Positions 10,377 to 59,239 of a stretch of DNA of 64,000 nucleotides are shown here, piece by piece. Positions within the stretch are counted from its first letter, which is position 1; the number at the start of each line of letters is the position of its first letter. Origin of the DNA: Myxococcales bacterium (GTDB taxonomy: Bacteria > Myxococcota_A > Polyangia > Polyangiales > Polyangiaceae); assembly GCA_947473045.1 (NCBI GenBank), contig CANJCO010000020.1, positions 1-64,000 of the forward strand, in the 5' to 3' direction. Position numbers and translations under genes: made by a program. The notes below the pieces were generated by a model. The model made no database searches and was not told where the DNA came from. It saw only the letters and a list, made by a program, of their open reading frames with translations.

Positions 10377-11180
10377 TCAGTCGAACTCGACGAGGATCGC
10401 GGTGATGTTGTCCTTGCCGCCGCGCTCGTTGGCGAGGTCGATGAAACGCTTCACCGCTGCCCGACCGCCGAGGTTGATCACGGGGGCGACGTCGGTCTCC
10501 CGCAAGTAACCGTGGAGCCCGTCGGAGCACAGCATAAAGCGGTCACCCGGCTCGATCGGCACGAGGCGCGTATCGACCTCGACGTATTCGCGGTTGCCCA
10601 CGGCGCGCGTGATCACGTTGCGATGGGGCGATACTTTCGCTTCTTCCTCGGTGATCAGGCCTTGTTTCAGCTGCCACGCGATGAGTGTGTGGTCTTCGGT
10701 CAGCTGCTCGACCACGCCCTTCGAGATGCGGTAGATGCGGCTGTCGCCCACCTGCGCGGTCACCGCGAAGCCGCCCGTCACGAACATCGCGCTGATGGTC
10801 GTGCCCATGCCGCTCTTCTCCTGATCGAGCTCGGCGAGCGAAAACACCATATACGTCGCGCTCTGAATGGCGCTTTCCATCATGCGGCAGGTCGCCCGCG
10901 CCGACGCTTCGTCGAGCGGAAGCGAGAGCGGCCTGAGGTCGCGGCTACCGCGCTTCACCATGCCGTAAACCGCGTCGACCGCCTCCTGGCTCGCGACCTC
11001 GCCGGCTGCGTGACCGCCCATGCCGTCTGCGACGACATACAGCCCCAGCGCGTCGTCCATGTAGAACGCGTCTTCGTTGGCCGCACGGCGCCGGCCTACG
11101 TCGGTGAGACCGAAGCCTCCGCGCTTCGTGTAGGTGGCGCCTGCAGCCGTGATTTTCTGGCTCGATCGTCGACTGGCCAT
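10377..11180 (-). CDS. PP2C-family Ser/Thr protein phosphatase
   Basis: A metal-dependent phosphatase of 267 residues that removes phosphate from Ser/Thr-phosphorylated proteins. The blocks GRRRAANEDAFY, VVADGMGGHAAGEVAS, GTTISAMFV, TAQVGDSRIYRI, LTEDHTLIAWQL, ITRAVG, LCSDGLHGYL and GGKDNITAILV cover the conserved motifs in order, including the metal-binding aspartates. The start ATG at 11180 gives a typical bacterial short form with no transmembrane segment. It is divergent from the FHIPEP export-gate gene and upstream of ddl. It is the natural counterpart of the Ser/Thr kinase genes elsewhere in the window (42367-44061), though no direct link is shown. Confidence 0.92.
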   Translation of the reverse strand: MASRRSSQKITAAGATYTKRGGFGLTDVGRRRAANEDAFYMDDALGLYVVADGMGGHAAGEVASQEAVDAVYGMVKRGSRDLRPLSLPLDEASARATCRMMESAIQSATYMVFSLAELDQEKSGMGTTISAMFVTGGFAVTAQVGDSRIYRISKGVVEQLTEDHTLIAWQLKQGLITEEEAKVSPHRNVITRAVGNREYVEVDTRLVPIEPGDRFMLCSDGLHGYLRETDVAPVINLGGRAAVKRFIDLANERGGKDNITAILVEFD

Positions 11181-17607: not shown

Positions 17608-17636
17608 TTCGTACGACAGGCGCAGCAGCGTGTCAA
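17608..17636 (-). promoter_or_regulatory. Candidate sigma-70 promoter of rpsA
   Basis: On the minus strand a perfect TTGACA (17636-17631) and TACGAA (17613-17608) are separated by 17 bases. Transcription would begin near 17601, leaving a leader of about 125 bases before the rpsA start. That leader contains a small hairpin with GGAGG/CCTCC arms around 17565-17580. S1 is autoregulated through its leader in enterobacteria; whether this leader does the same is inference. Confidence 0.5.
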
Positions 17637-18586
17637 AGCGGATCGGGAGCTGCGGGCCGCATCGCGTCGTCACCGAGCGCGCCGAGCAGCCATTCCGGCA
17701 GGCTCGCGCGAACGTGAACGACCGAGCCTGCCTGCGCCACCGCGGCCGTAGACAGCCATGCCCAGCGGGGCCCCCCTCGCCTCGTGAACGCCCCGATGAG
17801 GTCGCCTACGAGCCCGCGCGCGCGTTCGGCCTCTGCAGGCGCCGCGTAGGCGAGCTCGAGGGTGACGGCGTCGGTACGTGCGTCTGCAGACGCCCCGGTG
17901 CGAAGCGACAGGTCGAAGCTGCGGAGCTCGCGAAACATCGGCTCGAGCAGGCTTACGTGCGCTCGCGGAGCCATCGCTCGAAGGGCGCCGCCGGAGAGAT
18001 GAAGCGAGACGGGCGCCGGGTCGACGTCGGCGAGCTCGGCAAACACGGGCCTGCCATGTTCGCGACCCAGCGCGCGTCGGAGGCGCTGTTCACCTTCGCC
18101 GGCGCTTATCACCCACGATCGGTCAAGCAGTACGAAAAGCGCGCCCTGCGCCGGAACGAAGTCGAAGGCGTCGGCGTACGCCACACCGAGCGGCGAGCGG
18201 CGCCACTGGGCCGCCCCGTCCGCGCCCGCCGCGCGCGTCGGATCGATGCTGGCCGGAACGCCGCGGAGCACGACGACCGGCGGCGTTTGCGCTTCGAAGA
18301 GCACGACCACCTCGCCCGCAGCGCTGAGCGCGCGAGACACATCGACGCTGGGCGAAAGTGCGCGGCCGCTCAGTGCCACGTCGAGCGCGCGAAGCGCCGG
18401 AGCATACAGCGCGTCGGCGCGAAGTGCGCGCAAGTCGACGCGAAGTACGCCCGCGCCAGGCGAAGCAGCAAGCTCCTGCATCCACGCGCCGCTGAGCGGA
18501 ATTGGCGCCTCGCGCGTCACACCCCGCGCACGCGGAGCGCACGCCGCCGCGACAACCATCGCGAAGGCGGCGACCCTACGAAACAT
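17633..18586 (-). CDS. Lipoprotein of unknown function (between cmk and rpsA)
   Basis: A 317-residue product with a signal sequence and lipobox-like AAAC (Cys16), so it is likely exported and lipidated. The mature part is an alpha/beta protein with phrases such as VLRVDLRALRADALYAPAL and LFVLLDRSWVISAGEGEQRL. The same layout is seen in the lipoprotein at 21866-22846 on the other side of aroA, which suggests distant paralogy. It starts five bases after the cmk stop, so it is co-transcribed with cmk, and the rpsA promoter overlaps its 3' end. No enzymatic motif is recognised. Confidence 0.75.
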   Translation of the reverse strand: MFRRVAAFAMVVAAACAPRARGVTREAPIPLSGAWMQELAASPGAGVLRVDLRALRADALYAPALRALDVALSGRALSPSVDVSRALSAAGEVVVLFEAQTPPVVVLRGVPASIDPTRAAGADGAAQWRRSPLGVAYADAFDFVPAQGALFVLLDRSWVISAGEGEQRLRRALGREHGRPVFAELADVDPAPVSLHLSGGALRAMAPRAHVSLLEPMFRELRSFDLSLRTGASADARTDAVTLELAYAAPAEAERARGLVGDLIGAFTRRGGPRWAWLSTAAVAQAGSVVHVRASLPEWLLGALGDDAMRPAAPDPL

Positions 18587-20713: not shown

Positions 20714-21823
20714 TTAGCGGTGTTTGAGCAGCAGCGAGGCGACCGCTGCGGCCAGCGAAAGCGCGGTGATGACGAGCATGGCGACGAGCATCCACGTCGG
20801 CGCTCCGGCTGCGGGTCGACTGGAGACGGGAGCCTCTTGCGGCGACGCCGGAAGGTGCGGCGGAATTTCGTTGAGCTTCGCCACGCCACCGGCACGCCGG
20901 GCGCGAAGCTCGGCCGCGATCGCTTCGATCTCGCGGATGTCGCTGTTGACAGCCGTGGCTTCTTCGCGAAAAGCCGCCGTTCCTACCGTCCAGGCCTCCT
21001 CGCGCAAGCCCGCGTCGACGATGGAGGCAGTAGCGTCGAGCGGCGAGAGCGCGTCGTGGAGCGCGACGGCGGCAGTGCTGGCGGCCAGCAGCGCGGCGGC
21101 ACCAAAAAAAGCCCCGTCCGAGGTGCTCACATGCGCCTGCCAAACCACGACGCCGCGGTCTGCGTCGACGCGCGCGTCAAGCTCGATCGGGCCAGTCGCG
21201 TACTCGGCATAGGCGTCGATGACCGACGACACGTTGCGCGCGGCACGAAGTCCCGACGCCCGCGCGACGACGATCGCCTTGCCATCCAGCACGCGCCCGG
21301 CAGACAGCTCGAAAAGCACGTTGGGAAGCGCGCGCAGCTCGCAGTGCGCGAGCGCTCCCGCCCACGTCTGAGGCGCGTGCCCGGTGAGCACGCCGGCTTG
21401 CCCCATTTCTCCGAGCGCCAGCCACAGCAGGCGCGCGTTGCCGCACAGGGCCGCGAGCGCGAAACGATCGAGGGGACGCAGCCGCGTCCACTCCTCGGCG
21501 GTTATCGGGCGAAGCGCGGCGAGCGCCTCGTGAAGCTTCTGCGGAACCGCATCGACGGGAGGGTCGGCGACGGGATTGAGCATTCGCAAGCTGCGCAGGG
21601 CGGGCGCGACGAGCGCCTGCACCCGAGGCACGCTCACGTCAGCGAGGACCCCCTCCGCGACGAGCGCGAGGCGCGAGGACACCGCTAGCTGCGCCCACGC
21701 CGAAGGCGGCATCGAGACGCCGGAGCACAGCAGCGCCCTGCGCGCAGCGAGGGGAGGCTGTGCCAGCGCCGTGCCTATCTCTTCGAACGCGTAAATCAAG
21801 GATCGTGACTCCGAATCGAACAA
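20714..21823 (-). CDS. Membrane-anchored fusion of a NAP-like and a degenerate MoaC-like domain
   Basis: A 369-residue protein with three parts. Residues about 8-130 resemble nitrate-reductase-associated protein (NAP): an R-L-L-C-S-G-V helix, a Trp in SAWAQL, and PITAEEWTRLRPLDRFAL. Residues about 150-275 follow the MoaC fold strand by strand, with DGKAIVVARASGLRAARNVSSVI, VVVWQAHVSTSDGAFF and AAVALHDALSPLD in place of the enzyme's GDVxATARIAGIxAAKRT, the VRIxxxxRxTGKTGVEME segment and AALTIYDMCKA. The LCHPL histidine, the GVEME acids and the Lys of DMCK are gone, so catalysis on the pterin precursor is unlikely. A single membrane helix (344-366) ends the protein, placing the domains in the cytoplasm. 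The start codon is TTG at 21823. It precedes aroA by 17 bases. No molybdenum-cofactor gene is nearby. Confidence 0.75.
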   Translation of the reverse strand: MFDSESRSLIYAFEEIGTALAQPPLAARRALLCSGVSMPPSAWAQLAVSSRLALVAEGVLADVSVPRVQALVAPALRSLRMLNPVADPPVDAVPQKLHEALAALRPITAEEWTRLRPLDRFALAALCGNARLLWLALGEMGQAGVLTGHAPQTWAGALAHCELRALPNVLFELSAGRVLDGKAIVVARASGLRAARNVSSVIDAYAEYATGPIELDARVDADRGVVVWQAHVSTSDGAFFGAAALLAASTAAVALHDALSPLDATASIVDAGLREEAWTVGTAAFREEATAVNSDIREIEAIAAELRARRAGGVAKLNEIPPHLPASPQEAPVSSRPAAGAPTWMLVAMLVITALSLAAAVASLLLKHR

Positions 21824-21865: not shown

Positions 21866-22846
21866 CTACGATCCGAGCAGCTGCGGGATCCGAGCGAGGA
21901 AGCCCTGCAGCGACGCGTCGTCGATCGCAAAGGTAACCTGCACGTCGGTGGACCGCGGCGCGATCGTCAAATTCTGCAACTGCGGCAGATTGCCGGTGGC
22001 GACGGCAAATACGTTGGCCAGCTTGCCGAGCTTCTGCAAATTTTCGGCGCCCGCCGATGCCGACGCGTCATCGCCGTAAGTGGCCGTGCCCGCTACCTGC
22101 ACGCCGGGCGGAGCGAAGTTGCCGATCGCCCGAAAGGCTTTGAGTCCCTTCACGAACGAGATAGGCACGGGCCCCATCGACTGCGGCGTGAGGGGTTGAT
22201 TCGCAAAGTCGCCCGCGACCGCAAACGCAGCACCTTTCGTTTCGAGGGTCTCCATCATCCACGGGAAAAACGCCCGGGAAAGCCGGCCGTCTTTCATGCG
22301 TTCGAGCGCGCGGCGCATGCCCGACTCGGTCCCGACGAGGGCGGTGCGCGGCGACACGATCGTAAAGCCAACGTTGCTTACGGTGAAGAGCTTGCGGTCG
22401 GCGTATGTCGAGGCAACGACGAATCCCCCGCCCTTGACCTGCACATGATTGGTCGCCAGCGCCTCGATTTTTGCAGCATCGAAGCGACCCGACAGCACCG
22501 CGACGACATCGAGGCCCTGCGAGGAATAGGAGCCGAAGGTCACGCGATCGACGTCTTTCGAGGGCGAAAGCCCCGACTCTTCACCAAGCGGGAAGAAGCG
22601 CTCGACAAGCTGGCCTGCGAGGCCGCCTGTGGTCTTGCCGTCGACGATCGCGCGAACATCGAACGTGCCCGCGACCACGGGGGAAGATGGCAGGAGCACC
22701 ACCGGATCGCGGTCGATCGCCTCGGAGGCGGACGCACCCTTGACCTCCGTGGGCGCTGCCGCCCCGCCGGCGCCCGCCCCGCCTCCGCAAGCGGTCAACG
22801 CGGTAATTGCGGCAAAAAGCAGGCTCTCGAGCGGGCGTGTTCGCAT
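21866..22846 (-). CDS. Lipoprotein of unknown function (upstream of the NAP/MoaC-like gene)
   Basis: A 326-residue protein with a signal peptide and lipobox LTAC (Cys20), followed by a Gly/Ala-rich linker. The mature domain contains VVAGTFDVRAIVDGK, DVDRVTFGSYSSQGLDVVAV and ATYADRKLFTVSNVGFTIVS, an alternation of strands and helices that parallels the lipoprotein at 17633-18586. The ATG at 22846 was chosen; a longer frame to 23035 overlaps the P-protein gene and lacks protein character. It lies between the P-protein and the NAP/MoaC-like gene on the same strand, with short gaps, so a common transcript through aroA is plausible. Confidence 0.75.
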   Translation of the reverse strand: MRTRPLESLLFAAITALTACGGGAGAGGAAAPTEVKGASASEAIDRDPVVLLPSSPVVAGTFDVRAIVDGKTTGGLAGQLVERFFPLGEESGLSPSKDVDRVTFGSYSSQGLDVVAVLSGRFDAAKIEALATNHVQVKGGGFVVASTYADRKLFTVSNVGFTIVSPRTALVGTESGMRRALERMKDGRLSRAFFPWMMETLETKGAAFAVAGDFANQPLTPQSMGPVPISFVKGLKAFRAIGNFAPPGVQVAGTATYGDDASASAGAENLQKLGKLANVFAVATGNLPQLQNLTIAPRSTDVQVTFAIDDASLQGFLARIPQLLGS

Positions 22847-22889
22847 GGGGTGAACGTTAGTACGCGCCACGGCGGTTGGCGAGATCGGG

Positions 22890-23957
22890 TCAGCGCGTCG
22901 CCGGATACGAGCCGAGCACTTTGAAGAAGCGAGCCTTGCGGCGAACTTCTTCGAGCGCCGTGACGAGCCCGCGATCGGAGGCGTGCCCCGCCACCTCGAT
23001 GAAGAAGAGGTACGACCAGTCGTGCGTCTCCACACTCGCCAGCATGGCCCCTGACGGTCGGGAGTGAATGCGGGTCAGGTTGATGCCGCGCTCGGCAAAG
23101 ACGGCGAGAACGCTGAGCAGCGCGCCAGGAGCGTCGTGCACGCCGAACACGCACGTCGTCGCGTCGTCGCCGCTGCGGCCCGCGCCGCGAGACGACGCGA
23201 TCGCGTAGCGGACCTTGTCGGCGCTCAGCGTCGACAGGCCCCGGCGAGTGGCGACGAGGCCGAAAGCGCAGCCGATCGCTTCGCTGGCGAGCGCCGCGCT
23301 CGCGTCATCCGCTGCAGCACGTTCGCACGCTAGCCGGGGCGACGCTACGTCGATGACCGCGAGCCCGGAGCCGTCGAGCGCGACCTGCGCGAGGGCGTGA
23401 TCGGCAGCAGTCGCGTAGACTTTGAGCGGCGCCCCACCCGAGCCTGGCAGCGAATACAGGTCGAGATCATGCGAGACCTCGACGACGCCCGAGATGCGCA
23501 GATCGCTCTGAATGAGCGCGGCGAGCGTCGCCTTCACGGGGCCGTCGCCCAGGGTCTCGAGCGGCACGACCGCGAACGAAGCCCGCTTGCGCGACACCTC
23601 ATCGAGCGCCTGTTCGGCTGTCTCGCTGGCCACCAGCTCCGCCGCTGCGCCAAACCGCGTTCGCGCCGCGCAATAGCCTCCGCCGCCTGCCGGCCCCGCA
23701 TACGCGACGACCAGCGGGCTCGCGACCGCGACGCACGCCGCATGAACGCGCGTAAAAATGAGGCGAACGTCCTCCGAGGGCATCGCGACGGCGAGCGCTT
23801 CGAGCGCCGCGATCGCGGCCACGTCAGAGGCCGCACCGAGATCTGCCTGAAGCTCCCGGGAAAGCAGCGCGCGCTTGTCGAGCGCGGCCAGAATTTGCTC
23901 GTCGAGGCCCCTCAGAGCGGCACGAGCGTCGTCGACCCTGCGCTTATTCTCAGGCAT
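22890..23957 (-). CDS. P-protein-like: chorismate mutase/prephenate dehydratase with ACT domain, active sites divergent
   Basis: The 355-residue layout is that of PheA. A helical chorismate-mutase domain (about 5-78) comes first, then a prephenate-dehydratase domain (about 82-258) with AGPAGGGGYCAARTRFG, and then an ACT domain (about 266-345) with CVFGVHDAPGALLSVLAVF and IHSRPSG, ending KVLGSYP. In canonical enzymes the dehydratase carries PIENS and NxTRF; here these read PLETL (132-136) and ADKVRY (246-251), so the essential Thr is missing. In the mutase domain the arginines matching E. coli Arg11 and Arg28 remain, but the Lys39 position is Leu and the Arg51/Glu52 region is Ala-rich. The ACT phenylalanine-sensing domain looks intact. 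It may be a regulator or a very divergent enzyme. Confidence 0.8.
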   Translation of the reverse strand: MPENKRRVDDARAALRGLDEQILAALDKRALLSRELQADLGAASDVAAIAALEALAVAMPSEDVRLIFTRVHAACVAVASPLVVAYAGPAGGGGYCAARTRFGAAAELVASETAEQALDEVSRKRASFAVVPLETLGDGPVKATLAALIQSDLRISGVVEVSHDLDLYSLPGSGGAPLKVYATAADHALAQVALDGSGLAVIDVASPRLACERAAADDASAALASEAIGCAFGLVATRRGLSTLSADKVRYAIASSRGAGRSGDDATTCVFGVHDAPGALLSVLAVFAERGINLTRIHSRPSGAMLASVETHDWSYLFFIEVAGHASDRGLVTALEEVRRKARFFKVLGSYPATR

Positions 23958-42366: not shown

Positions 42367-44061
42367 TCAGGCGGGGAGGTTCGCGTGCACCCGGGCACGC
42401 TCTGCCGCTTCGCGCAGAGCCGCCGACAGCGCGCGGGCATCCGGAAACCGGTGCTTCGGGTCCGGCGCCATGGCCCCTTCAATGATGGCCTGCCAGTGCG
42501 GCGGTATTTTGCGGGCGATCCCGACCGGAACGCCGTCTGCCGGGGTACCCGACGACAAGAACAGTCCGCTGGGAGTTGGCGGAGGCGGCTCGCCCGCGAG
42601 GCACTCGAACATGGTCGCTCCAAGGGCGAACAAGTCACTTCGGGCATCGACCTCGCCGCCGGCCTCCTGCTCGGGAGACATGTACCCGGGGGTGCCCACC
42701 GGCGCGCCCATGCCGGTAATTCGGGTCTCTTCCCACTCGACCCGCGCAATTCCGAAATCGATGAGCTTGATGCGTTCGGAGCCGTCGGGCTGCTTCGCGA
42801 CGAAGATGTTGGACGGCTTGAGATCGCGATGCAAAACGCCGGCGGCATGCACCGCCACCAGCGCGTCGGAGATTTGCAGCGCGTAGGCGAACGCCTCGTG
42901 CTCGCCGATGCGCCCCTGGCTGCGCAGGCGATGGGCCAGCGTCTCTCCGCGGAGCAGCTCCATCACGAGAAAAGAAGTGCCGTCGGCGAGGTGCCCGTGG
43001 TCGATCATCTCGACGACGTTGGTGTGCCACGAAAGCCCGAGAGCCTCCGATTCGCGGCGAAGACGATCGGAGGCCACGGCATCGTGGGCGTTGGCCGCGC
43101 GCAGGAGCTTCACGGCCACTGCGAAGTCGTCCGAGATGCGCCGGGCTTCGTAGATGACTCCGCTCGCGCCAGAGCCCATGCGCGCGTGAACCCGGTATTT
43201 TCCGGCGATGATGCTCCCGTCGATCCGTGTACTTACCACGCGATCGCGCGTCTCTTTGAGGACAAGGCTGCGCTCGAGCGCCAGAACGCGAAGCTGCTGC
43301 GCCGTAAGATCGGCGCGCCTGCTCGCCTCGCGCGCGAAGGTGACTCCGAAGGCTGCGCACACGGCGGCGGTCGTGAGGCTCGCCCCGACGGCCACGCCCT
43401 GCGGCGCGTGCAGCAGCGAGGAGCTCCCTCCCAACGCGGCACCCAGGAGGCCGCCCATCGCCGCAAACTCCGGCAGGCGGGCGCGCTTCCAGCGCACCTC
43501 GTATTCCTGCGACAGCATCGAGGCCTCGGAGACCAGAGAGGCCGTTGCCGTCACGACGCCCGGGCCAAGACCGAACAGCGCAGTCACCGCGCGGAGCTGA
43601 GCTGCGCGCAAGAGCGCGAGGAGGCCGGATTGTTCGAGCGAAGGATCGTGGAGTACGTGCACGCGGCCGCGCCAGTAGCCGCGACGAACCTCGAGCGTCT
43701 GCCACCGCGTCGTGCGCCCGTACTCACTCTCCGAAGCGTCGAGCCGCGAGAAAGCCTGCGCGGGCCCAGTCGTGCCTCGCAGGACGCGGACCCAAAACCC
43801 CAGGTTTTCAGTGGCGATCAGCTGCGGCCAGACGTCGACAATCGCCGCTCTTCCCTCGATGTCGGCGAACTCCGACAACGACAGCGACAGCGCGCCCACG
43901 GTCATGAGCTGCGTCTCGTCTTCGAGCGCGTCGCGCGAAATGCCAATCGCTTTGAGCCAGCCATCGGTTACGACCGGACCGCGCTTGAGGTCGAGCCGGA
44001 GCATCAGCGCCTTGACGAGCGCGACAGCAACCTGTCCGGATGAGAAGCTCGATCGGTGCAT
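42367..44061 (-). CDS. Ser/Thr protein kinase with N-terminal unknown domain
   Basis: A 564-residue kinase with its catalytic domain at the C-terminus (about 275-555). The Gly-rich loop is MGSGASGVIYEA, VAVKLL holds the ATP-binding Lys, HRDLKPSNIFV the catalytic loop, LIDFGIARV the DFG motif, and GTPGYMSPEQ the activation segment, so it should be active. The first 200 residues form an alpha/beta domain, ending in GYWRGRVHVLHDPSLEQSG, that I do not recognise. Two hydrophobic helices (about 180-235) precede the kinase and are probably membrane spans. The reverse layout, kinase C-terminal, is less common than the usual N-terminal kinase. It is divergent from the NFACT-R gene. Confidence 0.9.
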   Translation of the reverse strand: MHRSSFSSGQVAVALVKALMLRLDLKRGPVVTDGWLKAIGISRDALEDETQLMTVGALSLSLSEFADIEGRAAIVDVWPQLIATENLGFWVRVLRGTTGPAQAFSRLDASESEYGRTTRWQTLEVRRGYWRGRVHVLHDPSLEQSGLLALLRAAQLRAVTALFGLGPGVVTATASLVSEASMLSQEYEVRWKRARLPEFAAMGGLLGAALGGSSSLLHAPQGVAVGASLTTAAVCAAFGVTFAREASRRADLTAQQLRVLALERSLVLKETRDRVVSTRIDGSIIAGKYRVHARMGSGASGVIYEARRISDDFAVAVKLLRAANAHDAVASDRLRRESEALGLSWHTNVVEMIDHGHLADGTSFLVMELLRGETLAHRLRSQGRIGEHEAFAYALQISDALVAVHAAGVLHRDLKPSNIFVAKQPDGSERIKLIDFGIARVEWEETRITGMGAPVGTPGYMSPEQEAGGEVDARSDLFALGATMFECLAGEPPPPTPSGLFLSSGTPADGVPVGIARKIPPHWQAIIEGAMAPDPKHRFPDARALSAALREAAERARVHANLPA

Positions 44062-44094
44062 GGTTTTCGCTCGGGTACTATAACGCCGCCGCGG

Positions 44095-45012
44095 ATGCCG
44101 AACACGGAAGAGAACATCGAGCTCGTCGGCGCGCGTGCCGCGGCGCTCGCCGACCTTCAGACCGCGAGCCGCCGCGCCTCGCGACGTGCGACCGCGATCG
44201 GCGGCGATCTTCAGCGAATCGCGGAGGCCCGAGCCCTCGCGGCCAACGCGGCGTGGCTGATCGTCGCCGCGACAAAGGCGGCTCGTGGGAGCGCGCAGAT
44301 CGAAGGCACCGACTGGTCGACCGGAGAGCCCGTCGCGATACGCGTCGCGATCGACCCCTCGCGATCGCCGCGCGAGCAGCTCGAGGCGATGTTTCGGCAC
44401 GCCAAGCGCCTCACGGGGGGCGAAGCGGTCGCCTGCCAGCGCCGCGACGAGGCACTTCGCACGCGCGCCGCGCTCCTCGAATGCGCGCGGCGGGTCGAGA
44501 CCGCAGAGAGCGCCCAGGCCATCGACGAAGCGCTGGCCGAGGCCCGGCGTGCGGCTGCCCGCGACATGCCCAGACGCGCGACATCTCCAGGCCGTCGAGA
44601 CAAACGCGACCAGTCGCTGCCGCCCCACCGCACGTTCACGTCTCAGGCCGGGGAGCTTGTGCTCGTCGGGCGCGGCGCAGCAAGAAACGACGCGCTCACG
44701 TTCCAGATCGCGCGGCCCCATCACCTGTGGATGCACGCGCGCGGCGTTGCTGGGGCCCACGTGATCGTGCCGATCGTTCGGGGACGCGATTGCCCTGCCG
44801 ATCTTCTGATCGATGCAGCGCACCTCGCCGCGCACTTTTCGGATGCGCGAGGCGAAGGCGTGGCAGAGATCATCACGGCCCCTCGCAAATGGGTTCGAAA
44901 GCCGAGAGGCGCAGCGCCTGGCGCCGTCATCGTGGAACGCGAGAAGGTGATTGTCTTGCGCGTCGAACCCGACCGGCTCGCGGGTCTGCTCGCGCGAGAA
45001 GTAATCGGCTAG
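44095..45012 (+). CDS. Stand-alone NFACT-R (RqcH-type) RNA-binding domain protein
   Basis: A 305-residue protein with a helical, Arg/Ala-rich N-terminal half (about 1-190, coiled-coil-like) and a C-terminal NFACT-R domain (about 195-300): PHHLWMHARGVAGAHVIVPI, LAAHFSDARGEGVAEI, PRKWVRKPRGAAPGAVIVER. In RqcH/Fbp homologues this domain binds the stalled 50S-tRNA complex during ribosome rescue. The large NFACT-N and HhH parts of RqcH are missing, so Ala-tailing activity is not assured. The ATG at 44095 is preferred over the track of the same frame further upstream, which overlaps the kinase start. Confidence 0.83.
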   Translation: MPNTEENIELVGARAAALADLQTASRRASRRATAIGGDLQRIAEARALAANAAWLIVAATKAARGSAQIEGTDWSTGEPVAIRVAIDPSRSPREQLEAMFRHAKRLTGGEAVACQRRDEALRTRAALLECARRVETAESAQAIDEALAEARRAAARDMPRRATSPGRRDKRDQSLPPHRTFTSQAGELVLVGRGAARNDALTFQIARPHHLWMHARGVAGAHVIVPIVRGRDCPADLLIDAAHLAAHFSDARGEGVAEIITAPRKWVRKPRGAAPGAVIVEREKVIVLRVEPDRLAGLLAREVIG

Positions 45013-45087
45013 CAGCCGCACCTCAGACGTTGCATGCATAACGCACGGTTCGGGCGCTGACGTGTCGCTACGTGGTAGAACAGGGAG

Positions 45088-47631
45088 ATGGCGCTGGGCG
45101 AACTGATCGGCCGCTGGCTTGGGCGCGTCGAGATCGTCCTCGCCGGGCTCGACGAGCGGCTGCGCGATGGCGAGGACGCGCTGGCTCATGGCGACGCGAT
45201 GCGCGCGCGAGCGGCGGCGCATGCCATCCTCGAACGATTGCCCGGCTCACCTCACGGACTCGCGCTGCTCGCCGACGCCTGTGAGACGGCGGGCCTCGAG
45301 GCCGAGCTCGAGCTGACGCTGGACGAGCTCTCCCACAGGGCGCCATCCCACGCCGAAGTGTGGATACGGCTCGCCGAGGCGCGACGCCGCTCGGGCGCTC
45401 CCGCGGCGCAAACACGGGACGCGTTTGTGCGCGCGCTCGCCGTAGCCGCGCCTGCTTCCGATCCGCGCCGAGGGGCGCTGCTGGCGCTGGCCGATCTCGA
45501 TCTGGAGCTGGGCGATGGCGCGAGAGCCGACCTGTGGCTCGATCGCGTCGCCGAAGATCGCGCGGCCGACGTGTGCCTGCGGCGCGCCGAAGCGCGGCTC
45601 GCAGCGGGCGATGGCCCAGGAGCGCAGGCGTGGCTCGAGCGCGCGGGCGACGATCCGCTCAGCGGAAGGCTCGCCCTCGCGCGCGGCCGAATGTGGGCCG
45701 AGGCGGGCGACGACCGCGCGATCGCACCGCTGCTGCGCGCCATGATCCTCGGCGAGCGTGGCGCGAGCGAGGCGCTGTCGTCGGCGCTCGCGTCGATGAA
45801 TACGACCGAGGAGCTTCGCGCGAAGATCGGTCGCGTCATCGAAGGAACCGAAGAGGCGGCGAGCGCGCGCTGGAGGGCCGCTTTTGCGCGCGCGGAGGGC
45901 CGGCGCGAGGACGCGAAGCAAGCGCTGATCGACGCGATCAAGGGCGGCTCCCAGAGCGCTGCGCGGGCGCTGTTCGACGCGGGCCTCGCAGACGGCGACG
46001 AGGACGCCGTCATCCGCGCGCTCGAAGCGCTGCCGGCCGGCGATCCCAGCGAGGAGATCCGCGACGCGCGCGCCCTCTCCGCCGCGGCGGCTGGCACGGC
46101 CGAGGCCCTCGACGCGATCGCCGGCATCGCTTCACCACGTGTCGCTCGCATCGCGCAGCATCGTCGCGCAGCGCTGATCGCGACGTGGCTCCCCGCCGAT
46201 GCTGCGGCGATGTGGCACGACTTGCTCGCGCGACTCGACGGGCACGCGCGCAGGCTCGGAGATCTCGACTCTGTAGCGGCGCTCGCCGAGCTCTCCGCCG
46301 ATCGGGCGCGACCTCTGCGCATCGCAATCGTCGGCGAGTTCAACGCGGGCAAGAGCACGTTCATCAACGCCCTCATCGGCGAGGACGTCGCCCCAACCGG
46401 GGTGCTTCCAACCACTGCGACGCTCCACCACCTGCGCTACGCGCCCGATCCGATCGCCCGCGTGATTCTCGAGCCCGGCGCGGGCGTGCCCGAGCGAATC
46501 GTCGCTACGAGCGAGCTCCGCGCAACGCTGAAGACCCTCGGTGACGGCGTCGTCCGGCGCGTGGAGATCCTGCTGCCGATCGCGTCTCTCACGCGCGCCG
46601 AAATCCTCGATACGCCCGGCTTCAACGCCCCCGACGCGCGCCACACGCTCGCAGCGCGGCGCGCCTTCGAGGAGGCCGACGTGGCCGTGTGGCTGCTCGA
46701 CGCCAGCCAACCGTTCAAGGACACCGAACGCGCCGTTCTCGAAGACGCAAAACGCGCCGGCCTGCCCGTGCAGATCCTCATCAACAAGGCCGATCGACTG
46801 CGCCCCACCGATCTCGCGCAGGTCCTCGCGTTGGTCTCGCGCGGGCTCGCCGAAATCGGCATGCAGTCCGTTGAGCCGCCGCTCGCGTTCAGCGCAAAGC
46901 TCGCCCTGGCGGGAAAGCTCGGCGACGCGGACGCGCTCGCGCAATCGGGATGGACCGCGGTCGCGAAGCTGATCGACGAGCAGCTCATCGGGCGAAGCGA
47001 GACACTCAAAGAGCGCTCCTTGCGAAGGCGCTTCGGCGAAATCATCGCGCACATGATGAGCGCCGCGGCGACGCGGGCCAGCGCAGAGAGCGAGGCACGC
47101 GCGAGCGCGGAGGCCAAGCGGCGAGCGTTTGCCGCCTGCGCAGCGCGACTCGATCGCGACGGCGAGGCTTCGACGAGCGCGGTGCTCGGCCGACTCAGCG
47201 GCGCGGTCGCAGCGTGGCGCGCGGACGTTGCGCTCGTCGCCACAGGACGCGACCACCGCGACGCATCGAGTGACGCGATCGCCATGCGATACGCCGTAGA
47301 CCGCGCGCTCGCGCATTTGGTAGGTCCTGCCTGTGAGGCGCTGGTGGCCTTGTGCGGCGAAGCCGGTACGGCCCCCGAGCAGTGGCAGCCGCTGTCGCGC
47401 GCGGCCATTCGCGCGGCCGCCTCGTGCGAGTTCTCAGGCGAGGATCGCTGGCTTCGCGGCCTGGCGCAGGCGCTCGTGGCGACCGCCATCGAGACTCTGG
47501 GAGCGCGCGCGATCGAAGCGCATCACAAGGGCGCCGACGCTGGCCTTGCCGACGAGCTCGGCGCCTTCGCGACCCTGCTTGCGCGCGCCGCTGCGAGTCC
47601 GCTTGCAAGCGATGGCGTCGTGGGGCAGTGA
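45088..47631 (+). CDS. Dynamin-like GTPase with N-terminal TPR array
   Basis: An 847-residue protein. Residues about 1-400 are Ala-rich helices with TPR spacing (for example ALADACETAGLEAELELTLDEL), forming a binding array. A dynamin-type GTPase domain follows: G1 IVGEFNAGKSTFINALIG (about 413-430), G2 region PTGVLPTTATLHHL, G3 DTPGFNAPDAR (about 507) and G4 INKADRL (about 565). A long helical C-terminal bundle without obvious membrane spans completes it. Bacterial dynamin-like proteins remodel membranes; here the fused TPR part would bring partners. The start is the ATG at 45088, after GGGAG. The downstream lptA start overlaps or follows within nine bases, so they form an operon. Confidence 0.87.
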   Translation: MALGELIGRWLGRVEIVLAGLDERLRDGEDALAHGDAMRARAAAHAILERLPGSPHGLALLADACETAGLEAELELTLDELSHRAPSHAEVWIRLAEARRRSGAPAAQTRDAFVRALAVAAPASDPRRGALLALADLDLELGDGARADLWLDRVAEDRAADVCLRRAEARLAAGDGPGAQAWLERAGDDPLSGRLALARGRMWAEAGDDRAIAPLLRAMILGERGASEALSSALASMNTTEELRAKIGRVIEGTEEAASARWRAAFARAEGRREDAKQALIDAIKGGSQSAARALFDAGLADGDEDAVIRALEALPAGDPSEEIRDARALSAAAAGTAEALDAIAGIASPRVARIAQHRRAALIATWLPADAAAMWHDLLARLDGHARRLGDLDSVAALAELSADRARPLRIAIVGEFNAGKSTFINALIGEDVAPTGVLPTTATLHHLRYAPDPIARVILEPGAGVPERIVATSELRATLKTLGDGVVRRVEILLPIASLTRAEILDTPGFNAPDARHTLAARRAFEEADVAVWLLDASQPFKDTERAVLEDAKRAGLPVQILINKADRLRPTDLAQVLALVSRGLAEIGMQSVEPPLAFSAKLALAGKLGDADALAQSGWTAVAKLIDEQLIGRSETLKERSLRRRFGEIIAHMMSAAATRASAESEARASAEAKRRAFAACAARLDRDGEASTSAVLGRLSGAVAAWRADVALVATGRDHRDASSDAIAMRYAVDRALAHLVGPACEALVALCGEAGTAPEQWQPLSRAAIRAAASCEFSGEDRWLRGLAQALVATAIETLGARAIEAHHKGADAGLADELGAFATLLARAAASPLASDGVVGQ

Positions 47632-53479: not shown

Positions 53480-56400
53480 TCACGACTCGACGGTGACGCC
53501 GAGACGCTCGCGCACGCTGAAGTACTCCTCGCTCACGCTGAAGAGGACGACCTCCTTCATGCGGTCCTTCGAAGTAACGGCCTCGCCCTCTTCGGTGGCC
53601 CGCATCATTTCGGTGGCGACCGCGAGGTCGTGCGCGAGAACGAAGCCAACGCGATCGGCGGTGAGGTCGATCGCTGCAACCCACTTCTTGAGGTCGAGCG
53701 CGCCGCCGCCCTGAACGAGCTTCGATACGACGCTGGCGAGGCGCTCCTTGTCGGCCGGCGCGAGAGACGCCTGCAGCGCCGCGCTCGCATCTGCCACGGG
53801 CCCCTGCAGGTCTGCGGATATCGGGAACTGCGGCACGCTGAGCTTGATGGCCGCGAAGAGCCAGGCTTTGAGGCCCGTGCCCGTCGGCACGAGGTGACGC
53901 ACGTAGTAGCCGGGCCTGAAGTAGGTGAGATGGCGGCCTGCAATGAAGGCCATCTGCTGCGTCGTGACCTCCGTCTCGAACGCCGCACGCCCGAGCACAA
54001 TCGCCGGCGTGTGCGCGTGCACGAAGCCCAAACCCCCCGGATCGTTGGGATTCTGGAACGCGAGCGGCGCGGCAAATCCGAGCACGCCCTGCACGTAGTA
54101 GAGCGTCTGCGACGCAGGATACATGTGCTGCGAGAGGTCGAGCGCGTAGCGGGGATCGAAGCCCTGCGCTTCGAGCGTCTGCGTGCGCGACACAATGATG
54201 ACCGGCTGAATCAGCGCGAAGATGCGCGTGACGAACGGATCGAGATCGGCGTGCGCCAGCTTCGTCCAATCGTCTTCAGTGAGCGCTGCCTGCGCGGCCG
54301 CGGCGTTGTCGGCCTTGTTGCGACGATAGAAACGCTCCTCGTCTGGCTCGGCGAGATTGAGCACCGCCAGCGCCTGGCACAGGCACCACGCGGGATCGGG
54401 CCGTTTTCCGTCAGTGTAGAGCTTGCGCAGGAGCTTGTAGCTCTCGACGCGGTACGGGTTGCGACGGAGGATTTGCGCCTGCGCCTTGACCGCCTTGTCG
54501 AGGTACTGCCCGACGTCGCTCGCGTAGAGCTCGGCGAGAAGTTCTCCGCGCTCTTTGCTGTCAGGATCGAACGCCTGCGCCGCCTCGTAGGCGTCGATCG
54601 CCATTTCCGGCTCACTGAGCGCGCCCTGATAGAGGGCGCCGAGCTGGTCGAGAACCTTCACGAGCTTGTCGCGATCTTGCGACTGCTTCGCCTGGTCGAG
54701 CTGCACCTTGAGCAGGCGCTCGACGCCATCGTGATCGCCCTTGCGGCGGCGAAGATCGAGCGCGTCATCGAGCGCCTTGGTCAGCGTCGGGTCGAACTCG
54801 AGCGCGCGGTCGTAATAGCGGATCGCCGCTTCGGTATCCCCGAGCTGCCGCGCCGAAACGATAGCTGCAGTCTGCATGTACTTCGCCCGCTGCTTCACGT
54901 CGTCGACGAAGTCAGCGAGGCGCAGGACGACCTCGACGAGCTTCGTCCAGTCCTTCTCTTCCGAGTAGAGCTGCATCAGCCGCGACAGCAGCCGTCGATC
55001 ATCGGGCCTCTCTTCGAGCGCCGCCACATAGCTGCGCGATGCCCCGGCGCGATCGGAGAGCCGCTGCGACTCGATGTCGCCAATCTCGATCAGCAACTCG
55101 AAGCGCTCGGCCCCGACGGCCATCTCAAGGCGACGACGCCTCGTCTTGACGGCGTCACGCCACTCGCCCTTGGCTTCGTAGGCCTTCGAGAGCGCGCGGA
55201 GCGTCTGCGCGCTCGAAGGGTCGGCCTCCTCGGCCGCGACAAGCGGCTTGATCGCCGCGTCGAGATCACCCATTCGGCGCGCGCTCTCTCCGACCCCGTA
55301 GAGCACCTCGGCGCGATCGGCGCCCACCAGTCGCGAGCCGTATTTGTCGAGCAGCTCTTCGTACATCTTGCGGGCCATCGGCGCTTCGCCATGATCGAAC
55401 ACCGCGCGAGCCGCGCGCGTCGCCGTGTCGAGATCGCCGGGCGCGAGCTTCTGGAGCGCCTCGACCGCAGCGAGAACGCGCGGATTGGACGGCGGCAACA
55501 TCGACTTGGCCGCACCGAGGTCAACCGCGGAAGACGACGGCGCCGGCGGGGCCAGCGAAGCCATCGAGGGAGGCGGCAGGAGCGAGGGCCTGGGCGCAGT
55601 GAGCTTGCCCTGTGCCTCGATGTACCGAATCAGAACGCGAACGCCGTCTTCCTTGGCGAGCACGCTCGTGCGACCGGCCAGCGACTCGTAGAATTTCGAC
55701 GCCTCGAGAAAGCGCCCTTCGTCGAACGCGAGATCGCCGAGAACCAGCTGAGCGTCCGCGTTCGTCGCGTCGAGCTCTGCCGCCAATTTGGCCGAGGCCG
55801 CCGCGCGGTGGTCTTCCTTGAGCTGAACGTGGAAGAGCCGGGCGAGCTCGCCGTGCAGGCGCGCTTTGGCCATGTTGCCCTCGGCCACCGCGAGCTCCTG
55901 TTCAATCAGAGACACGACGCTCGAAGCGTCTCCGCGCGCCGCGTAGGCAGCACGCAGCGACGATGAAGCCGAGGCGTCTCGCGGGTTGCTCTCGAGCGCC
56001 AGCTTGTAGCGCTCAATCGCCCCGTCGCGGTCTCCGCGCGTCTCGAGCAACTTCGCGGCTCGCAGCCACTGCTCGGCCTTGAGCTCGGGCGTCTGCGCCT
56101 TCGCTGCGAGCGCTTCGATCGCCGACAGCGCCGCGTGCGCGTCGCCGGAGAGCTCCTTCAAGCGCGCCAGCGCCTCGAGCGCGCCGCCGTGGCCCGGGTT
56201 GATCTCGACGACCTGCTCGTAGGCGCGCATCGCCCGCTCGGGAGAGCCAACCTGCTCTGACAGCGTGCGCGCGCGCTGCAACATCAGCTCGACGCGGCGC
56301 TCGTCATTCGCGGCGATCGCCTCATGGCGCTCGTACACGCGAATCACGTCCTCCCACTTGCCCTGCGCACGATAGTGACGCGCGAGCCCGGAGAGCGCTC

Positions 56401-58903
56401 CGTCGTTCGCGGCGTCGAGCTTGAGGATCTCCTCGAGCGCGAGCGAGGCCTTCTCGTGATCGAAGAACTCCTCATCGTACAGCGCGGCGATGCGCTCGAA
56501 GAGATTGAGCTTCTGACGGGGCGTGGCGGCGACGGCGATCTGCCGCTCGAGAACCTCGAGAAGCTCGCGGAAGTGGCCCTTTTTCGTGAAGATTCGGTCG
56601 AGTCCGCGGAGCGCGCCGAGGTGCTTCGGATCGACCGCGAGCACGGACTCGAAGCGCCGCATTGCTTCGTTGATGTCGGCGAGCTGCACCTCGTAGGCCT
56701 CGGCGATCTTCACGAGCGCGTCGATGCGCTCCTGCCCGCCGCGGGCGTCGGCGCGCCGCTCGAGCAGCGTGACGAACGTCCGGTAATCGCCCGCGGCCTC
56801 CGCGATGCGGGCGAGGGCCTCCCCCGCCTTGGCGTGGCCGGGATCGTCCTGAAGAATCGCGTCGTAGATTTCGCGCGCGCGCTTGGTGTCGCCCAGCCTG
56901 TGTTCATACAGGTCGGCTGCTTCGACCCGCAGGTCGCGCCCGCGCGGAGATGCGCCCGCTGCATCGGCTCGCGTCGAGAGAATATGCGCGAGCTCCGGCC
57001 ACTGCTGCGCCTTGCGGTAAATGCCGGTGACGGCCTCCGCGGCAATCTCACTCGCCGGCTCACTCACGAGAATCTGCTGGTAGGCCATGAGCGCCATGTC
57101 AGCGCGGCCCACTTTCTGGTCGTACCAACGCCCGCACAGCAGCATCAGCGCGTTCTTGTCGGCCGGGGAAGCGTCGCCCTTCACAGCCTCTGTCAGCGAA
57201 GACAGGACCTCCTGCCAGCGCTCGGGGTTTTTGCCCGCGATGTGTTCAACTTCGGCCGCGTACTCGCTGGAGCTGGGCAGTTCGCAGAGCGCCTGCGTAT
57301 AAGCGACGAGCGCCTGTTCGGCGTCGTCGAGCTCGTGGGCCGTGATGCGACCGATCTCGCCCATGAAGCGCGCGCGCTGCTCGTTGGTCGAGGCCTTCTC
57401 GGCCCGCGAGAGCAGCAGCTCGACCACCTCGCCGAATTTTCCCTGGGCCTTGCGGGCCTCTTCGAGGGCGACAACGGCGACCTCATCGTCGGGATCGAGC
57501 TCGGCGATAATCGCGTAGAACTCTTCGGCGCGAGCTTTGTCCTTCTGGTGCTCAAAGATTCGCGCAGCCCGAAAGAGCAAGCTCTTCTTGGTCTCTTTGT
57601 AGTCCGCGGCAGACGTCTCGAGCTGATCGGCCGCCATCGCGAACGCGTCGGCGATCTTCGCGGGCTCCGCCACTCTGTCGACCGCCGTTTCGAGAGCCAT
57701 CGCGGCCTCGGCGTCGTCGGGCGAGGCGACCAGCGCGTCGACCAGCGCGTCGACCGTTTCCTGCGAGAGGAAATCGGCTGCCGAACGCTGGGCCGCGGCA
57801 GGCTTGCCCAGGTTGTCGATCGCCTCGAGCAGCTCCTGAGCGTCGCGAGGACGCGCTGCGGGATCTTTCGCGAGCAGCGACAGAACAAACGCGTCGACGT
57901 CTTTGGCAACCCAACCGCGCGGCGCCTTCGTGCTCGGCGCGTCGGGAACGCTCGTCAGGTGAGCGAGCGCCGCGTCGACCGGATCGTCGCTCGCGAAGAC
58001 CGGCTTGCCGCTGAGCAGCTCGTAGAGCATCGCGCCAAAAGCGTAGACATCGGTGCGGGCGTCCGCCGACTTGCCGCGAACCAGCTCGGGAGCCATCGCG
58101 CGCGCCGAGCCGAACACCGCGACCGTACCGGCAGACAGGCGGGGACGAAGCCGATCGCCGCCGAAATCGACGAGCACGGCACGTAGTCCCTGGCCGCCTT
58201 CGACGCGACCGACGAGCACGTGTTCCATCCGGAGATCGCCGTGAACGAGCTGCGCCTTGTGAAGCGCTGCGAGCGGCTCAAGAATCGCTTTGAGCACCGG
58301 ACGAAGCTCGTTGACGTGCGAAGGGCCGGTGCGCGCGAATCGCGCCGAAAGCGCCTGGCCGTCGACGTTGTCATACGCCACGAAGAACACGCCTTCGTGC
58401 TCCGCAGCCTCGACTCCGGCGGGAAGCCCGTCGTGGGCGACCCGCGCCACGAGCCGGTTGGCCACAAGAAAGCGATTCGCGGCGCGCCGATCACGCGAAG
58501 CCTCTCGGCGGAGCGTCTTGATGAGCCGCTGCGCTCCCGCCTTGCGCGCGAGGTAGCCGACGCCGAGATCGGTCGACGACACCTTCCGCTCAATCGTGTG
58601 CCCGGCAAAGACCTGCCCAACGGAGAGCTCGGACTCGGTCGAAAGCGCCGCCAAATCGCGAGCCTTCGGGTCGACCTCTTTTCGCGAGGCAGCCAGCACG
58701 TCGATCAGCGCATCGAGTTGATCGCGCTGCGCGAGCCAGTCGGTCAGGGCGCGCGCGAAGCTCGCCTTCGCGGTGTGACCGCCGACCGCCTCGGGGTCGA
58801 GCCCCAGCAGGTTTTGAGACATCTGGGTCAGCTCATCAAGCGTGAAGAGACGCTCGAGTTCGCCGCGGAGCAGGTCGATGGAGGAGGTCATTGGGAAGGG
58901 CAT
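53480..58903 (-). CDS. Giant pseudokinase-TPR protein with N-terminal EAD-like domain
   Basis: An 1807-residue cytoplasmic protein. Residues about 5-80 (LRGELERLFTLDELTQMSQN, ARALTDWLAQRDQLDALIDV) have the helical pattern of bacterial effector-associated, death-like domains. A kinase domain (about 100-365) follows: the ATP-site Lys in RLIKTLRRE, the catalytic loop HGDLRMEHVLV instead of HRDLKxxN, VDFGGD at DFG, and MAPELVRGKSADARTDVYAFG. The Gly-rich loop and the metal-binding Asn are missing, so activity is doubtful. About 1200 residues of TPR-type helices and a C-terminal globular part (about 1550-1800) complete it. ATG 58903 was taken; ATG 58891 is an alternative. It heads an operon with the sulfatase-fold gene and gloB. 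Confidence 0.85.
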   Translation of the reverse strand: MPFPMTSSIDLLRGELERLFTLDELTQMSQNLLGLDPEAVGGHTAKASFARALTDWLAQRDQLDALIDVLAASRKEVDPKARDLAALSTESELSVGQVFAGHTIERKVSSTDLGVGYLARKAGAQRLIKTLRREASRDRRAANRFLVANRLVARVAHDGLPAGVEAAEHEGVFFVAYDNVDGQALSARFARTGPSHVNELRPVLKAILEPLAALHKAQLVHGDLRMEHVLVGRVEGGQGLRAVLVDFGGDRLRPRLSAGTVAVFGSARAMAPELVRGKSADARTDVYAFGAMLYELLSGKPVFASDDPVDAALAHLTSVPDAPSTKAPRGWVAKDVDAFVLSLLAKDPAARPRDAQELLEAIDNLGKPAAAQRSAADFLSQETVDALVDALVASPDDAEAAMALETAVDRVAEPAKIADAFAMAADQLETSAADYKETKKSLLFRAARIFEHQKDKARAEEFYAIIAELDPDDEVAVVALEEARKAQGKFGEVVELLLSRAEKASTNEQRARFMGEIGRITAHELDDAEQALVAYTQALCELPSSSEYAAEVEHIAGKNPERWQEVLSSLTEAVKGDASPADKNALMLLCGRWYDQKVGRADMALMAYQQILVSEPASEIAAEAVTGIYRKAQQWPELAHILSTRADAAGASPRGRDLRVEAADLYEHRLGDTKRAREIYDAILQDDPGHAKAGEALARIAEAAGDYRTFVTLLERRADARGGQERIDALVKIAEAYEVQLADINEAMRRFESVLAVDPKHLGALRGLDRIFTKKGHFRELLEVLERQIAVAATPRQKLNLFERIAALYDEEFFDHEKASLALEEILKLDAANDGALSGLARHYRAQGKWEDVIRVYERHEAIAANDERRVELMLQRARTLSEQVGSPERAMRAYEQVVEINPGHGGALEALARLKELSGDAHAALSAIEALAAKAQTPELKAEQWLRAAKLLETRGDRDGAIERYKLALESNPRDASASSSLRAAYAARGDASSVVSLIEQELAVAEGNMAKARLHGELARLFHVQLKEDHRAAASAKLAAELDATNADAQLVLGDLAFDEGRFLEASKFYESLAGRTSVLAKEDGVRVLIRYIEAQGKLTAPRPSLLPPPSMASLAPPAPSSSAVDLGAAKSMLPPSNPRVLAAVEALQKLAPGDLDTATRAARAVFDHGEAPMARKMYEELLDKYGSRLVGADRAEVLYGVGESARRMGDLDAAIKPLVAAEEADPSSAQTLRALSKAYEAKGEWRDAVKTRRRRLEMAVGAERFELLIEIGDIESQRLSDRAGASRSYVAALEERPDDRRLLSRLMQLYSEEKDWTKLVEVVLRLADFVDDVKQRAKYMQTAAIVSARQLGDTEAAIRYYDRALEFDPTLTKALDDALDLRRRKGDHDGVERLLKVQLDQAKQSQDRDKLVKVLDQLGALYQGALSEPEMAIDAYEAAQAFDPDSKERGELLAELYASDVGQYLDKAVKAQAQILRRNPYRVESYKLLRKLYTDGKRPDPAWCLCQALAVLNLAEPDEERFYRRNKADNAAAAQAALTEDDWTKLAHADLDPFVTRIFALIQPVIIVSRTQTLEAQGFDPRYALDLSQHMYPASQTLYYVQGVLGFAAPLAFQNPNDPGGLGFVHAHTPAIVLGRAAFETEVTTQQMAFIAGRHLTYFRPGYYVRHLVPTGTGLKAWLFAAIKLSVPQFPISADLQGPVADASAALQASLAPADKERLASVVSKLVQGGGALDLKKWVAAIDLTADRVGFVLAHDLAVATEMMRATEEGEAVTSKDRMKEVVLFSVSEEYFSVRERLGVTVES

Positions 58904-59239
58904 GGTAGCGGAAAGGTTTCTCCGATTGGGAGAGCAAAAGAAGGCCGCTTGCCGGTCAGCCAATGGCGGCGCCGGCGCGGAGGCCGCTCGCCCGGCCGCA
59001 CGCCGCAAGACACGCGGCCCCGATCGCGAGGCGACGGCCCGCCGGCCAGAGGCGACCGCTGGGCGCCTTGACGGCTAAAAACGAGCGATGTGTGTGCGAC
59101 CGCCGGAGCCGGTGTGCGACAGGGCCGCGACCAGTGAACGCATGTGCCCCGTCGCGCCGGCACGGGGTTGCGCCGGCGAAAGCGCGCATTGCTGACGTAT
59201 TGCTGAGGCGATCGCGCTGCGTCCCCGCAAAAACCCCGA
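58904..59239. other. Gap without a recognisable gene
   Basis: Between the divergent starts of the giant pseudokinase gene and rpsO I see no credible reading frame and no tRNA cloverleaf. The DNA is GC-rich with a tandem-like pair of GTGTGCGAC copies around 59090-59120. It must hold the pseudokinase promoter on the minus strand, but no convincing -10/-35 pair was found for it. Confidence 0.5.

Follow-up and report, generated by a model that had tools for sequence, protein, structure and literature searches.

A maintained family of MoaC-fold pseudoenzymes fused to a NAP/NarM-like domain in Polyangiales, with a possible role as phosphothreonine-switched adaptors

Our sequence comparisons indicate that a group of Polyangiales proteins in which a NAP/NarM-like domain is fused to a MoaC fold that has lost its catalytic residues, referred to here as psiMoaC, is a maintained pseudoenzyme family. 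One member is encoded in the window (i.e., the whole stretch of 64,000 nucleotides analysed here, from a soil bacterium). It seems that an old metabolic enzyme has found a second use in signalling or as a scaffold, and we tentatively propose that psiMoaC may be a pseudoenzyme that works as an adaptor, with phosphorylation of a threonine as its switch and docking to FHA domains as its output. The earlier note on this DNA had suggested a new sensing or scaffolding use of the MoaC fold; that suggestion is plausible and now has a concrete form, a phospho-motif together with an FHA partner, but it is unproven. Within the literature collection that we searched, we found no paper joining "MoaC" and "pseudoenzyme".

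An open reading frame check of the window confirmed a minus-strand frame at 20714-21823. The TTG at 21799 is the likelier start because the ATG of a same-genus homologue aligns there and a GGAG, read by eye, lies 9 nt upstream; the 361-aa protein from this codon is probably a better choice than one from the frame's listed start at 21823. The predicted product runs from a NAP/NarM-like domain through the MoaC fold and a flexible tail to a C-terminal membrane helix (Table 1).

Table 1. Features of the psiMoaC gene in the window and of its predicted product.
Feature	Position in window	Strand	Residues and remarks
NAP-psiMoaC gene	20714..21799	-	361 aa; probable TTG start; listed ORF runs to 21823
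NAP/NarM-like domain, all-helical	21380..21799	-	aa 1-140; profile matches, model, alignment
MoaC-fold domain without catalytic residues	20990..21361	-	aa about 147-270; Pfam, alignment, AlphaFold2 model
Acidic-Thr-hydrophobic tail motif REEATAVNSD, putative phosphothreonine site	20937..20966	-	about aa 279-288; 14/15 complete tails
C-terminal membrane helix, tail-anchor-like	20720..20800	-	about aa 334-360; AlphaFold2 model and hydropathy

The Pfam MoaC profile matches the window protein over aa 152-273 at 31.7 bits (cut-off 27; 1.8e-7). An AlphaFold2 model built from 35 sequences has a mean pLDDT of 88.2, and the stretch from about residue 118 to 270 matches MoaC structures with Z of 14-17 (17.1 against E. 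coli MoaC, 1ekr), compared with 7.3 for the best non-MoaC fold. A chance likeness to MoaC was rejected on this difference, and the profile match and the model together bear out the MoaC fold read earlier from the sequence. In MoaC, K51, K67, H77, E112, E114, K131 and K147 have catalytic roles, in what we take to be the E. coli numbering, which is consistent with the motif spacing. We found that the window protein lacks the histidine (H77->A), both glutamates (E112->G, E114->A) and the DMCK lysine (K131->S), as the earlier note had said, and further carries K51->D, K67->R and K147->E, while D128 is retained. Across an alignment of 16 clade members, K51, K67, H77, E112, E114 and K147 are absent from every protein, K131 is lost in 14 and kept in two, and position 128 is D or E throughout. 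Whether the loss is fixed in all clade homologues, a question raised at the outset, can thus be answered with yes for the histidine and both glutamates and with no for the DMCK lysine. The 26 controls (ordinary MoaCs and intact fusions) retain the catalytic residues, except for E114H and K147R in one of them (G027). Relative to MoaC (cyclic pyranopterin monophosphate synthase, PF01967), psiMoaC therefore keeps the fold and the Arg59 and Asp128 positions but differs in the six residues absent throughout the clade, in an invariant QxHxS strand of its own and in having no Moco gene neighbours at the loci examined.

Our tree places the psiMoaC homologues in a single clade (support 100/100) separate from the intact fusions; the clade set comprises 15 proteins and one more, L191, found later by another search. 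Relatives of the window protein include two kinds of NAP-MoaC fusion, intact and catalytically dead. The intact fusions of Polyangiales, the sister group in the tree, share domain order and core length with psiMoaC but keep the MoaC residues and have no tail motif (described below); of those examined, some have moaA or moaE next to them and one carries MoaE in the same protein. The psiMoaC clade is present in about ten genera and two families, all within Polyangiales, and searches of 290 genomes from the class and 379 from the phylum, both partial samples, did not find it elsewhere; a first scan of genome contigs with the window protein as lone query had given no match. Among the 59 closest genomes, each psiMoaC carrier also encodes an intact MoaC or NAP-MoaC, and the intact copy in the window's genome (G000:C47) lies beside moeA. 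We found 33 invariant columns across 15 divergent clade proteins, including Q221, H223 and S225 of a WQ[A/G]HxS strand that is nearly invariant in the clade and absent from MoaC. The dN/dS ratio was 0.36 and 0.37 in two pairs, one of which, with a dS of 1.08, is near saturation. The ratios indicate purifying selection, and with the invariant columns they show a clade that is maintained rather than decaying.

Directly after the MoaC fold, nearly all clade members carry a motif in which acidic residues precede a threonine and position +2 or +3 is hydrophobic. The motif is present in 14 of the 15 members with complete tails, compared with none of 26 MoaC or intact-fusion controls; G262pb is the clade member without it. 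The motif rule fits 13 of 14 scored members against a shuffle mean of 4.1, and 0 of 20000 shuffles reach 13, a figure that is optimistic because the rule was drawn after viewing the same tails. L191, which came from another search, fits the rule too. In the window protein the motif (TAVN) has no hydrophobic residue at +3, and pLDDT is low around it (residues 276-285). Several short members terminate at or just past the motif, and a linker with a terminal membrane helix is found in six of the 15 complete members, the window's among them, and in none of the other nine. The window protein has one predicted hydrophobic helix close to its C-terminal end, followed by few residues, which fits the tail-anchored type, and the hydropathy of its C-terminal 19 residues is 2.45. 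The initial description of a protein held at the membrane thus suits the window member, which has the helix, but not the family, and a membrane tether was rejected as a defining family trait on the same count.

The neighbours of the window gene are an S1-domain (rpsA-like) gene, cmk, aroA, a lipoprotein-like gene, pheA, a zinc-ribbon gene and smc, with no molybdenum gene and no nitrate reductase gene among them, in agreement with the original observation that molybdenum genes were not nearby. No moa, moe or mob gene lies beside any examined locus of the clade, unlike several intact fusions. In the window's genome and in a same-genus relative, the gene is flanked by the lipoprotein-like gene and aroA, and no FHA or kinase gene adjoins it. 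Two lipoprotein-like genes without a Pfam match (21869-22972 and 17636-18586) flank the aroA-cmk-psiMoaC block, the former being syntenic in G001. Elsewhere in the window there are a PP2C gene at 10380-11180 and Ser/Thr kinase domain matches at 42370-45222 and 53483-59008, but these lie too far from the gene, and are too common in genomes of this kind, to suggest a link. A neighbourhood conserved throughout the clade was rejected since most loci have differing, unrelated neighbours. One family member (G285, L128:3007-7607) adjoins apparent NAD-linked hydrogenase genes, of NuoE/NuoF type by Pfam and with subunits assigned by eye.

At a few loci, psiMoaC adjoins a gene for an FHA-ABC exporter, an adjacency that was spotted after the fact. 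In G009, a PP2C gene, an FHA-ABC-ABC2 gene and psiMoaC lie on one strand with the exporter directly adjacent (27 bp). In G251 and G258, psiMoaC is divergent from an FHA gene, and in G258 the gene starts overlap; this neighbour is FHA-ABC-ABC2 in G258, and in G251 the contig ends inside the FHA gene. The adjacency amounts to two events because G251 and G258 belong to the same genus and are counted once. Ser/Thr kinase domain genes lie near psiMoaC in G017. Most genomes of the family encode the FHA-ABC exporter, and in the window's genome its gene is on another contig (G000:C7). A PP2C gene followed by an FHA-ABC exporter gene recurs across the family, in L179, L182, L183, L184, L185 and L188, often preceded by a further gene with an FHA-like match.

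A precedent is found in Mycobacterium tuberculosis, where the universal stress protein Rv2623 binds the exporter Rv1747 at FHA I via pT237 (pTRVV) (PMC5549992) and Rv1747 is modulated by PknF (PMC3908365); a comparable phosphosite, ETTS, is present in GarA (PMC12321487). The Rv2623/Rv1747/PknF system combines a non-kinase protein carrying a Thr-x-x-hydrophobic motif with an FHA-ABC exporter, as psiMoaC may do, and the tail motif of the G009 member, TRVF, can be set beside the TRVV of Rv2623. Rv2623 differs in being a universal stress protein and no MoaC relative, and for psiMoaC the binding to FHA domains is a prediction.

According to the adaptor model, a NAP-MoaC fusion of molybdenum-cofactor synthesis would have given rise to a Polyangiales paralogue in which the MoaC chemistry was lost but the fold and the NAP domain persisted. 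A Ser/Thr kinase would most likely phosphorylate the tail threonine, an FHA domain would bind the phosphorylated tail, with the Rv1747-like FHA-ABC exporter as first candidate, and a PP2C phosphatase would reverse the switch. The NAP-psiMoaC body would serve as a regulatory or ligand-sensing adaptor, which in the window's member the tail anchor would keep at the membrane. We infer the evolution from an active fusion, the phosphorylation, the FHA binding, the exporter as target and any ligand, as well as an FHA-docking role for the copy in the window's own genome, whose neighbours are not FHA or kinase genes. Counted against this model are the unrelated neighbours of most other copies, the count of two for the adjacency events, the abundance of kinases and FHA proteins in these genomes, the window's TAVN without a hydrophobic +3 residue and the motif-less G262pb. 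If confirmed, the model would mean that an enzyme of cofactor synthesis has been drawn into Ser/Thr kinase signalling. It would also give FHA-ABC exporters beyond the Actinobacteria a partner that can be tested, and open a way into the NAP domain, for which we found no relative of solved structure.

An alternative that we consider unlikely is a regulator of molybdenum cofactor synthesis: psiMoaC would assemble with the cell's active MoaC, which functions as an oligomer, or would bind the substrate or the product of MoaC, and would thereby adjust this synthesis, in certain species from the membrane. The retained MoaC fold, the intact MoaC or NAP-MoaC in each carrier of the 59-genome set and the tie of the NAP domain itself to molybdoenzyme maturation are consistent with such a regulator, but the absence of moa, moe and mob genes beside the examined clade loci and the substitution of charged active-site residues throughout the clade argue against it. 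We assign a similarly low probability to a new enzyme or ligand site on the MoaC fold, in which the clade invariants W220, Q221, H223, S225, R188 and E206 form a different pocket. The clade's WQ[A/G]HxS strand speaks for this site; gene context, however, points to no substrate, and the conserved His, Ser and Gln of one strand may be structural or form a binding surface. The adaptor model could accommodate such a site if its role is confined to ligand binding. In a more speculative version, which we regard as a long shot, psiMoaC would sense a pterin or nucleotide in the remodelled pocket and signal to the FHA-ABC exporter via its phosphothreonine tail, coupling envelope export in Polyangiales with the metabolism of the cofactor.

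The N-terminal domain of the window protein matches Pfam Nitr_red_assoc at 24.4 bits, under the cut-off of 25, whereas in the genome search it scored 26.2 bits and so passed that cut-off; the NCBIfam NarM match is 1.9e-6 and 28.5 bits against a cut-off of 110 bits. In an alignment with standalone NAP proteins, the domain shares the L, P, R and W positions common to NarM/nitrate-reductase-associated proteins (PF09655, TIGR02664), from which it differs in scoring near or below the curated cut-offs and in a gene that is not beside nitrate reductase. Modelled by itself, the domain reaches a pLDDT of 94, and Foldseek gave no PDB match for it at E<=0.001, an absence that does not establish a new fold. 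The profile matches, though close to or below the curated cut-offs, and the alignment support the NAP-like domain first recognised in front of the MoaC fold; calling its role unknown was too strong, since NCBIfam labels the family as nitrate reductase maturation protein NarM and NAP domains also occur joined to intact MoaC, MoaC-MoaE or MobA. A NAP-MoaC-MoaE triple fusion is encoded as one protein at L016:1495-2829 (G023), and a fusion of NAP with a MobA-like nucleotidyltransferase at L029:964-1911 (G048), another link of NAP to the molybdenum cofactor. In G021 and G043, NAP genes that stand alone are close to genes for molybdopterin oxidoreductases.

The NAP profile match and these two standalone loci would suit a purely NarM-like chaperone role, with NAP acting on a molybdoenzyme and the dead MoaC part reduced to a structural spacer or a means of oligomerisation; we find this quite unlikely, as the conserved residues of the MoaC part exceed what a spacer needs and no nitrate reductase gene lies beside any copy examined. 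A functionless, decaying paralogue is highly improbable and already disfavoured: six or seven catalytic residues are lost, but a dN/dS of about 0.37, the invariant columns, the conserved tail motif and the spread over two families and about ten genera all speak against decay.

A different degenerate NAP-MoaC protein, with K51P, H77Y, E112D and K147E, is encoded at L093:2077-2949 in G013, where it is the sole MoaC match found; G179 and G278 contain matches as well.
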